From the NCBI GenBank assembly GCA_017379255.1, contig JAFNWZ010000306.1:1-11812 (forward strand): a stretch of 11,812 nucleotides of DNA, in the 5' to 3' direction. Under the pieces are notes generated by a model. That model saw only the letters and a list, made by a program, of their open reading frames with translations, did not search any database and was not told the DNA's origin. A program made the position numbers and the translations under genes. The stretch is from Akkermansia sp. (GTDB lineage Bacteria; Verrucomicrobiota; Verrucomicrobiia; Verrucomicrobiales; Akkermansiaceae). Shown one piece after another: positions 8,439 to 11,062 of the stretch. The first letter of the stretch is position 1. The number at the start of each line of letters is the position of its first letter.

Positions 8439-9959
8439 ATGAATAAAACACTTCATATTGTAGCAACTTTAGTTGCTTATGTCATGCTGGCCGTGTCTCC
8501 CGCCTGGGGCGCGGAATCCTCTGCCGAAGCTTCGCAGCAGACCTCCAAGCGCATCGCTTGTTTTGAAGATTTACGCGGCCGCGTTCTTGCCGTTCCCTCT
8601 TCCACCGTACAAGATATTTATGTGGAGGAACACTACCCGGATATCCGTCTCGACCGCTTTGATACCGAGGCTGACATGATGCTCTCCCTGCAGCAGGAAA
8701 AATGCGACGGAGCCATCATGGACGATGTCATCTGCTACGCACTGGTACGCAAGACCGAGGGCGTTACCATCCTTCCGGACAGTCCCGTCCCCCCCTGCCA
8801 GATGGGTATGGTATTCGGCAAACACAACGCCGGGCTCTGCCAGCAATTCAACGCCTTTATCGCCCAGCTGAAAGCCAGCGGTGAGCTCCAGCAGATTATG
8901 GATCGCTGGATCAAGCATTTCGACACGGCTGAAATGCCCAACCTTCCCCTGCCCACCCAGGGCGAGCCTATCCGCGTGGCCATGGAGCCCTGCACCGAAC
9001 CCATCGTCTTCATCAAGAACGAAAAGATTGCCGGTTTCGATGCCGAACTGGTGCAGCGCTTCTCCGTCTACATCAACCGCCCGGTGGAAATCGTGGAATT
9101 GGTGTACGATTCCCTCATCGCCTCCACCACCACCGGCAAGGCAGATATGGCCGCATCCGGCATCCTCATCACGGATGAGCGTGCCGAAAGCGTCCTTTTC
9201 TCCGACCCGTACTACGACAGCCACTCCCGCGTGGCTATCCTCACCAAGAACGCCGACGCCTCCATCATCAGCGGTAACGAAGGTGCGCAGGCACTGGGCA
9301 TCTGGGGCAGCATCCAACGCAGCTTCATGCGCAACATCATCGAGGAGCGCCGCTACATGCTCCTGTGGGACGGTCTGAAGGTCACCGTCTATATTTCTTT
9401 CTTTTCCGCCCTGCTGGGCACTATCCTGGGGGCATTCATCTGCTATCTGCGCATGAGCAGCTGCAAAATCTGCAGCAGCATCGCCAGGATATACATTGAT
9501 GTCATGCGCGGCACTCCCGTGCTCGTGCTCCTGATGATGATGTGCTACGTCGCCTTCACCCAGTTTGACAACACACCGGTGGCCATCATCACCTTTGCCA
9601 TGAACTTCGCCGCCTACGTCAGCGAAATGTTCCGCACCAGCATCAGCAGCATTGACAAGGGCCAGACCGAAGCCGGCATAGCCCTGGGCTTCTCACCCGT
9701 GCGCACCTTCTGCCACATTGTGCTGCCGCAGGCCGTGCGCCGCGTGCTGCCCGTGTACAAGGGAGAGCTCATCTCGCTCATCAAGAACACCTCCATTGTA
9801 GGTTACGTGGCCGTGGCAGACCTCACCCGTGCATCCTACATCATCCGCGGGCGTACCTTCGACCCCTTCTTCCCGCTTCTCATGGTGGCACTCATGTACT
9901 TCCTGATTGCCTGGCTGTTCACCTATATCCTTGACCGCATTGGCAACAAAGTCTGCTGA
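8439..9959 (+). CDS. Amino-acid ABC transporter: circularly permuted substrate-binding domain fused to permease
   Basis: Importer subunit of the polar amino acid (GlnP/HisM-like) family, 506 residues from the ATG at 8439. Residues 1-24 are a signal peptide (cleavage around AWG/AE). Residues 40-163 match the second half of a family-3 binding protein: [19 protein letters not shown], then the closing helix ending MDRWIKHF. Residues 178-271 match the first half: IRVAMEP...IAGFDAELV...[26 protein letters not shown]. In E. coli GlnH these halves occur in the opposite order. The ligand contacts fall at Asp95 and Arg248. The permease follows (about 308-505) with roughly five membrane helices and the ATPase-docking EAA loop EAGIALGF...IVLPQA (411-432). 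Six cysteines lie in the exported part. The first gene of a two-gene operon, with no Shine-Dalgarno. The amino acid carried cannot be read from sequence. Confidence 0.93.
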
Positions 9960-9991: not shown

Positions 9992-11062
9992 ATGATTCAA
10001 ATCAAACACCTTCAGAAGAGCTTCGGCAAAATTGATGTGCTCACCGATGTGAACCTGAACATCAAATGCGGTGAGGTTATCTCCATCATCGGCCCCTCCG
10101 GCACTGGTAAGAGCACCTTCCTGCGCTGCCTCAACCTGCTGGAGCAACCCACCGGCGGCAGCATCATCATCGATGGAGAAGAAGTGCTCAACGGGCACAT
10201 CAACACCTCGAAACTGCGCCAGAAAATGGGCATGGTATTCCAGTCATTCAACCTCTTCAACCACCTTTCCGTGCTGGAGAACGTGTGCATCGGCCCGGTG
10301 AAACTGAAAGGCAAGAGCCGCAAGGAAGCCGAAGCCAAGGCCATGGAACTGCTTAAGCTCGTGGGCATGGCAGAGAAAGCCCACGCCATGCCCGATGAAC
10401 TCAGCGGCGGGCAGAAACAGCGGGCCGCCATTGCCCGCAGCCTCTCCATGGAGCCGGAAATCATCCTTTTCGATGAACCCACCTCCGCACTCGATCCCAC
10501 CATGGTCAGCGAGGTGCTCTCCGTTATCCGCGCGCTGGCCCGCCAGGGCATGACCATGGCCATCGTGACCCACGAAATGAGCTTCGCCCGTGATGTAAGC
10601 ACCCGCGTGGTGTACATGGACAAAGGTATCATTTACGAAGAAGGCACGCCGGAGGAAATCTTCGAGCACCCGAAGCGCGAACGCACCCGCGTATTCGTGA
10701 ACCGCATCCGGGATTTCCATTTCGCCTTCCACAGCCCGGATTACGACCGATTCCTGCTCAAATCCGAATGGCAGGCCTACTGCAACAAGTATTTCCTGAC
10801 CCGCGAAAGCATGCGCAAGGCCCAGCTCATCGGCAACGCACTCTTCCGCAACCTGCCGCTGGATAAAGGCACGCTGGACTTCTACTTCCGCTACTCGGAA
10901 CAGACCCGGGAAATGAGCATGGAAGTACTGCTGCCTTTCGGCACAGATGAGGTAGACCTGGAAAGCAGCCAGATTATCAAGGAACTCTGCTCCTCCGTTG
11001 AATCCAACATTGAAGATGACCGCGTGAAATACAAGCTCAAACTGCGCCACAGGAACCGCTGA
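9992..11062 (+). CDS. GlnQ-type amino-acid ABC transporter ATPase with extra C-terminal domain
   Basis: Cytoplasmic ATPase that powers the permease encoded 32 bases upstream. Residues 1-235 are a complete polar amino acid ATPase: Walker [10 protein letters not shown] (34-42), Q-loop Gln84 (MVFQSFNLF), signature LSGGQKQR (137-144), Walker B IILFDEP (157-163), D-loop SALD and H-loop His194 (VTHEM). Family members normally end near residue 240-250. Here about 110 residues follow (245-356), with an alpha/beta pattern: a helix ending in YCNKYFLT, a helix with [11 protein letters not shown], a strand with LDFYFRYSE, a strand with SMEVLLPFG, a helix with [12 protein letters not shown] and a basic C-terminal strand. 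The order loosely recalls a degenerate GHKL/HATPase-like fold; that is tentative. It probably senses something or regulates transport. The ATG has no clear Shine-Dalgarno. A strong terminator follows 21 bases after the stop. Confidence 0.93.

Follow-up and report, generated by a model that had tools for sequence, protein, structure and literature searches.

The locus described here raises the question of whether the two halves of an amino-acid-binding domain can stand in reversed order in a protein that also carries the membrane domain of a transporter. We analyzed a stretch of 11,812 nucleotides from a gut bacterium, Akkermansia sp. (assembly GCA_017379255.1, contig JAFNWZ010000306.1), referred to below as the window. 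An open reading frame on its forward strand at 8439-9956 begins with ATG, remains open throughout and encodes a protein of 506 residues, P0001; a GTG in the same frame precedes the ATG by 16 codons. An initial annotation, made from the sequence alone, had proposed that this protein is one circularly permuted substrate-binding domain (SBD) fused to an ATP-binding cassette (ABC) permease. Pfam, Protein Data Bank (PDB) matches, homologues, free-standing units and an AlphaFold2 model agree on this point, and the initial interpretation as a whole is partly supported. We are highly confident that P0001 supplies both SBD and permease to a type I importer of polar amino acids, that its single SBD is permuted, and that it is the one-unit member of a family whose units change as a whole.

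Order of the SBD halves in the window gene

We use L2C1 for lobe 2 plus the closing helices, N1 for the N-terminal half of lobe 1, and n for the number of L2C1-N1 units. The complete protein matched PF00497 (SBP_bac_3, family 3 of the substrate-binding proteins, SBPs) with E 4e-27 and 95 bits against a cut-off of 26.4, which places it in this family. The match is split into two pieces that depart from the conventional N1-L2-C1 order: profile positions 1-94 correspond to 8970-9251 of the window (E 3e-20), and profile positions 97-131 lie upstream within 8643-8915 (E 1e-5, 26.2 bits), a piece that taken alone sits just at the cut-off. The same exchange was observed with phmmer against the PDB, where residues ~187-273 matched the start of a conventional SBP chain (6svf_A) and residues ~38-159 the end of one (4ymx_A), and the reversal noted in the initial annotation stands. 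No Pfam family for OpuAC (PF04069) or for Type I sugar-binding proteins matched P0001 at E<=1.

The chain begins with a putative signal peptide, recognized by eye and without a lipobox (residues 1-25, 8439-8513), and continues with L2C1, normally the C-terminal SBD half (residues 38-162, 8550-8924), the Pro-rich linker that had been predicted to join the native C- and N-termini (residues ~163-176, 8925-8966), and N1 (residues 177-272, 8967-9254). A tether of ~33 residues (9255-9353), delimited by family gaps and model confidence, connects the hinge end of lobe 1 with the first transmembrane helix of a PAAT-type permease domain (residues 306-506, 9354-9956). This domain matched PF00528 and TIGR01726 above their cut-offs (67.4 versus 42.2 bits for TIGR01726) and the PDB chain 4yms_D. 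It adjoins a GlnQ-like ATPase gene, as in PAAT ABC importers (3.A.1.3), and it is preceded by N1 rather than by the complete conventional SBD of a GlnP-type protein. Asp95 (8721-8723) and Arg248 (9180-9182), which the initial annotation had listed as conserved, both align with the amino-acid-binding residues of GlnH; in our alignment they fall on what we take to be D157 and R75, presumed to bind the ligand alpha-amino and carboxylate groups, respectively. Other pocket residues differ from GlnH at several positions.

The checks that the initial annotation had proposed include a structure prediction and a survey of homologues for conservation of the order, and the results of both are consistent with it. 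AlphaFold2 modeled residues 26-300 with a predicted local distance difference test score (pLDDT) of 90.3 and a predicted template modeling score (pTM) of 0.85, which fits one rigid domain. Block means of 93-97 over the C1-N1 linker indicate that it is ordered, and pLDDT fell below 50 from model residue 259 (residue 284 of the protein) onward, in the tether. The arginine-binding protein (ArgBP) of T. maritima superposed on the model domain by domain, with a root-mean-square deviation (rmsd) of 2.0 and 30% identity for domain 2, and 2.7 and 34% for domain 1. The highest-Z match was OpuAC, both for this n=1 model (10% identity) and for an n=2 model described below, and plain Foldseek gave query TM values of 0.32-0.46 among the 50 matches listed for the n=1 model. 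No solved family-3 structure in permuted order was found among the PDB matches listed (best 60 of 77 and best 60 of 254). The fold of the window SBD and the packing of its halves in cis are predictions of the model.

The homologue survey took the best 120 of 2052, 1150 and 957 matches, pooled into 278 proteins including P0001; conventional proteins are not expected in best-hit lists of this kind, and the frequency of conventional relatives cannot be read from them. N1 stands directly before the permease in all 278, and 43 of them, including the window protein, show the same single-unit order. The permuted order is therefore neither chance nor a frame error.

A family of permuted receptors

Within these homologues the L2C1-N1 unit is repeated: besides the 43 proteins with n=1, 88 have n=2, 72 have n=3 and 65 have n=4. 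Of the remainder, 8 start with an N1 piece, one has an additional L2C1, and one is P0234. The last, of 1513 residues, has four permuted units ahead of the permease and, beyond a hydrophobic stretch, one more at ~1245-1510, apparently a free SBP fused behind the permease. When each species was represented by a single genome, all 80 loci scanned besides those of Akkermansia (best 80 of 526) encode the permuted order, with n from 1 to 4 and some of them truncated at a contig end; they hold 81 genes and come from 13 named phyla and one unplaced record. Many of the array loci lie on contigs of metagenome-assembled genomes, and the phylum labels may contain binning errors; loci labelled as coming from cultured strains are, among others, those of Nitrosomonas communis, two Methylobacter, Trichlorobacter thiogenes, Syntrophomonas wolfei, Flexilinea flocculi, Novosphingobium arvoryzae and Pelotomaculum propionicicum. 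Permuted and conventional fusions were both present among the loci fetched from 194 genomes of the window's phylum. The genus is represented by 18 genomes. Listed rows span both halves and the permease in just three of them, namely the own genome, G137 (n=2) and G051 (n=1); each of the remaining genomes has listed rows over the permease, unlisted matches or no match. When plasmids were searched with tblastn, a free unit gave 43 of 1481 records with at least 80% coverage, 15 listed rows being named GlnH or general SBP, and the n=2 protein P0029 gave 3 of 2475 records. Source names such as 'ABC transporter substrate-binding protein/permease' conceal the segment order. The window gene belongs to this family, its permease falling in the array clade and following N1. 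The family is real and widespread, a branch of a familiar group of importers that has apparently not been described before, and the permuted order is no isolated error.

We observed the unit on its own as well. Among loci L001-L113, 17 frames contain one L2C1 and one N1 without a permease; from stop to stop they measure 247-318 codons. Sixteen of these are clearly free-standing; the frame at L095 has a leaderless L2C1 in a different frame directly after it and is perhaps a fragment of an interrupted array, and the minus-strand frames at this locus (308-1123, 1127-1798, 1006-2556) form an array apparently broken by a stop and a frame change. In the free protein of 247 residues encoded beside the n=1 gene of Trichlorobacter, residues 150-246 and 21-134 match 7-103 and 115-227 of 6svf, so that T. 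maritima ArgBP (229 residues) is matched whole with its halves exchanged. Free permuted SBPs stand beside arrays at L055 (4938-5720), L012 (6658-7440), L024 (4144-4926 and 9029-9796) and L047 (4914-5717 and 9205-9984), among others; many have a lipobox by eye, and they comprise at least two sequence types. At L098, a free permuted SBP (466-1284) lies next to a permease frame without an SBD half (1280-2077), an unfused version of the same arrangement.

We next consider the spacing of the segments, with 11 duplicates removed from the homologue set for the gap counts. Across 364 distinct permuted proteins the C1-N1 gap was nearly constant (927 gaps, mean 11.3, standard deviation 1.13, range 10-16), with the residues MP in 32 of 40 random examples, and the N1-L2 gap was long and variable (572 gaps, mean 9.9, standard deviation 5.28, range 1-36). 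The same hidden Markov models gave -2 to +2 for the N1-L2 gap of 35 conventional hinges, all from the window's phylum. Between N1 and the permease, 219 cases gave gaps of 24-44 residues. In 315 arrays the covariation of L2C1 with N1 (top-30) reached 0.206 for the permuted pairing, 0.107 for a nested pairing, 0.139 for the outer pair alone and 0.047 for the shuffle, the baseline being one shuffle per pairing scheme. Since whole-unit duplication also favors the permuted pairing, we count this signal as evidence for the evolutionary unit. An AlphaFold2 model of the Pelotomaculum n=2 array had a pLDDT of 89.7 and a pTM of 0.52, as expected for what the model presents as two loosely jointed domains, and its only interior stretch with pLDDT below 50 was the N1-L2 junction (239-243). 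Most rows of its structural comparison superpose one permuted unit with an rmsd of 3-5 and low identity, some of them perhaps through the pseudo-symmetry of the lobes. Linker statistics, covariation and the n=2 model favor L2C1-N1 as the unit, and the statistics support its evolution unit by unit.

In a permease tree of 155 rows, thinned from 230, the permuted proteins stand apart from 12 conventional rows with an SH-aLRT of 98, one conventional row being a very long branch. The value of n changed at least 28 times among the 139 permuted rows and at least 3 times among the 22 rows of the window's clade, whose named members are Akkermansia, with four long-branch rows excluded and 17 truncated rows uncounted. 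The nearest proteins to P0001, where named, are likewise from Akkermansia sp. Units within one protein are 93-99% identical in the n=2 proteins of this clade (P0061, P0057, P0017, P0029 and others), compared to a median highest unit-pair identity of 43% across all 315 arrays; such identity implies that whole units were duplicated or homogenized, by recent duplication or gene conversion. An n of 1 recurs in the family. The single unit of the window gene could be ancestral or could have been reduced within Akkermansia. The initial annotation had derived the gene from a GlnP-like SBD-SBD-permease protein that lost the outer half of each SBD. This step is unneeded for the window gene, since its relatives, free SBPs and arrays of one to four units, are already permuted; permutation by duplication may nevertheless be the origin of the whole family. 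In P0114, residues ~24-55 hold a short remnant of an N1 tail between the lipobox and the first L2C1. We discarded its reading as a relic of a lost conventional N1, since on inspection it looks like the end of a free permuted SBP of one type, and it is probably the scar of a deleted unit.

Several other accounts of the window gene were weighed against a self-contained permuted unit. Its single unit might be the assembly collapse of an n=2 array, which would keep the permuted order and make n 2: near-identical units such as those of the Akkermansia n=2 proteins are repeats that short-read assembly can merge, and the own genome is in 457 contigs. However, many assemblies agree on n=1 for all listed proteins of the window's clade (~77-96% identical to P0001), in some cases with contigs 130-337 kb long, the sister n=2 arrays with equally similar units did assemble as n=2, and n=1 also occurs in Trichlorobacter (L055), Pelodictyon (L044) and two more genomes of the window's phylum (L088, L092), which makes a collapse very improbable. 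There is a slight chance that the domain is completed in trans, with L2C1 of one protomer pairing with N1 of the other in a homodimer. Segment order alone fits either arrangement and the transporter is probably a dimer, but the confident monomer model with its ordered linker, the near-constant linker length, the free units of ~250 residues and the unit behind the permease of P0234 suggest a self-contained domain. We likewise give little credence to the view that P0001 is a degenerate leftover of a tandem SBD protein that no longer binds ligand; it would account for the altered pocket and for a partner ATPase extension that Pfam does not recognize, and it is at odds with the retained Arg and Asp, the confident fold, the conservation of the listed clade, and a permease and ATPase that appear intact by eye.

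The chain order of the arrays is also compatible with nested conventional SBDs, in which each inner N1-L2C1 would form a domain, the outermost L2C1 and N1 would pair, and an n=1 protein would be what remained after the inner ones were lost. Within a single n, the outer pair alone matches the covariation of the permuted pairing, with fewer pairs and a higher shuffled baseline. Across all arrays, however, the permuted pairing exceeds both alternatives, and 567 of the 572 N1-L2 gaps are longer than two residues, unlike a hinge, leaving 5 of two or fewer. Free single units exist, and the flexible point of the n=2 model is the N1-L2 junction. Five rows fit N1 of the first unit and L2 of the second on conventional SBDs of ArgBP, Tv2483 or GlnP type over 168-176 residues with 21-39% identity, yet with an rmsd of 12.6-13.4. 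The nested arrangement is disfavored on all four counts, and we regard it as extremely unlikely. The preferred reading is a permuted unit that would fold on its own.

The partner ATPase and its neighbours

The gene that follows P0001 encodes an ABC ATPase domain (residues 1-239, 9992-10708, forward strand) that matched PF00005; among NCBIfam models GlnQ fits best, with a score under the equivalog cut-off. By eye the domain contains what we take to be the Walker A, LSGGQ and Walker B motifs. It is followed by a C-terminal extension of ~120 residues (10709-11059), by position the counterpart of a domain found elsewhere in the family. The ATPase tail past residue 238 measured 118-133 residues in all 78 assessable permuted loci, the window included, compared to 2-8 residues in all 10 conventional loci. 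We scanned the extensions of 41 of 66 entries and of the window, and 23 of these 42 contained HATPase_c_2, a domain resembling RsbW and SpoIIAB (E<=0.01, best 1e-6). The window extension itself matched no Pfam family, and a PDB search with the extension profile A4 gave no credible match, only a tudor chain with E 0.4.

Frames for partner switching (SpoIIE-RsbW-STAS) were observed in the flanks of 35 of the 80 array loci, with STAS at 32, SpoIIE at 21 and free HATPase_c_2 at 17. At four loci (L027, L028, L030, L051) STAS occurs only in frames of more than 1.3 kb that are possibly other proteins, and 31 of 80 remain without them. Five more permuted loci have a STAS frame (L087, L089, L090, L096, L097). 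To give a scale, 10 array genomes, chosen from loci with nearby STAS, hold 56 STAS matches in ~37 Mb, or ~0.02 per 12 kb. Conventional loci showed no such frames, a weak control as their flanks are shorter than those of the arrays. The window lacks these features, with no recognizable HATPase_c_2 and no STAS on its contig; in the own genome no PF13581 (HATPase_c_2) was found and STAS occurs on other contigs only, in a search that did not cover SpoIIE.

Pfam-confirmed frames for SpoIIE, STAS or free HATPase_c_2 lie at L007 (2299-4299, 9152-9487), L082 (4560-4925), L047 (2993-4871) and L044 (2111-4105, 10517-10861, 10868-11296). The SpoIIE phosphatases of L007 and L044 have a Cache-HAMP-SpoIIE architecture, and upstream of each lies an NMT1-type SBP (L007 1329-2354, L044 1087-2145), a second receptor type in the cluster.

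The MlaB-MlaF pair, in which a STAS protein sits on an ABC ATPase, shows that such an ATPase can come under the control of STAS. The extension and the neighbouring frames point to a possible link between amino-acid uptake and SpoIIE/STAS signaling. We tentatively raise, as a possibility we think more doubtful than probable, that the family is a new class of sensor-importers, in which rows of permuted amino-acid receptors and an ABC ATPase with an RsbW/SpoIIAB-like domain would be coupled through STAS and SpoIIE to partner switching, and of which the window gene would be a stripped one-unit version that has lost the signaling link. In that case many arrays would have a lipid anchor at one end and the permease at the other. 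If this were true, extracellular amino acids could gate signaling, or the phosphorylation state could gate transport.

Proposed mechanism and relation to known binding proteins

The residues expected to hold the ligand were counted across the family. Among n=1 frames, 51 of 51 N1 segments retain the Arg that binds the carboxylate; in arrays, counted outward from the permease, it is present in 165/169, 165/169, 45/50 and 8/8 N1 segments; for the Asp the counts are 46/50 in n=1 and 119/169, 118/169, 26/43 and 3/8 in arrays. These counts include the window twice (L001, P0001) and two frames cut by contig ends (L045, L084). As the other pocket positions vary, amino-acid-like ligands with differing side chains are to be expected. 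By a loose pattern, a lipobox precedes the first unit in 51 of 61 proteins with n=4, 51 of 70 with n=3, 41 of 81 with n=2 and 0 of 42 with n=1.

In the mechanism we propose, the chain would form lobe 2 directly after the signal peptide and pass to lobe 1 through the closing helices; a Pro-rich linker of ~11 residues would connect the native termini, N1 would finish lobe 1, and the chain would leave at the hinge through the tether into the permease. The cut would fall in the N1-to-L2 hinge strand, leaving one covalent crossing between the lobes rather than two. An alpha-amino acid would be clamped between Arg248 and Asp95, and the SBD would dock on the permease, probably a homodimer, and hand over its ligand on firing of the neighbouring ATPase. 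Units would be gained and lost as entire L2C1-N1 modules, with n between 1 and 4. We infer the amino-acid ligand, the docking, the transport and the homodimer; the most likely mechanism is ordinary type I import by way of a re-threaded receptor. The initial annotation had also suggested that the permutation changes which lobe is tethered to the membrane domain. This does not follow, as the permuted domain now terminates with N1, which in the known SBP fold still belongs to lobe 1: the tether would leave that lobe at the hinge instead of at the closing helices, and the N-terminus, with its signal peptide or lipid anchor, would now begin lobe 2.

The initial annotation knew of no described example of such a permutation. 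For SBPs in general this does not hold: PMC2395249 reports a circular permutation between OpuAC and ProX, and PMC4990184 describes TpMglB-2 (Tp0684) of Treponema pallidum, proposed as 'Type Ic', as a natural circular permutant that still binds ligand. OpuAC (B. subtilis; permease-fused as OpuABC in L. lactis) is a glycine-betaine SBP of another sequence family with a quaternary-amine ligand. We know of no unit arrays for OpuAC. TpMglB-2 is a Type I sugar SBP of another fold class, a lipoprotein without permease fusion, whereas the window SBD belongs to family 3 and is fused to its permease. For family 3 the claim stands as far as the open-access literature goes (subscription papers lay outside the search): we found no report there of a permuted family-3 SBD or of permuted arrays, nor of an ABC ATPase with an RsbW-like domain. 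Words beginning with 'permut', 'swap' or 'dislocation' are absent from PMC2861598, and a passage of PMC9732360 uses 'permuted' only for GFP.

In conclusion, permutation is known in other SBP families and is apparently undescribed for family 3, where it adds a large permuted branch, with natural arrays of one to four units and free units, to the best-studied family of amino-acid receptors. These proteins allow one to test the effect of cutting one of the two hinge strands of an SBP, of tether geometry on permease docking, and of the evolutionary tuning of receptor number. The segment order, the family and the free units are plain at the level of sequence, and the halves match one by one those of T. 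maritima ArgBP (6svf, 6gpm, 6gpc) and GlnH, members of the same family that are free proteins in conventional order. GlnP of Lactococcus lactis GlnPQ (SBD1-SBD2-permease) resembles the window gene in carrying family-3 SBDs N-terminal to a PAAT permease, and permuted sequences matched GlnP (6h30) across its SBD1-SBD2 junction in a PDB sequence search; however, its SBDs are whole and conventional, and its permease follows C1 rather than N1. A further comparison lies in the own genome, where a paralog (C25, locus L002) likewise has a single SBD fused to a PAAT permease and followed by an ATPase gene: there the order is N1-L2C1 and the ATPase has no extension, whereas the window pair is permuted and carries one.
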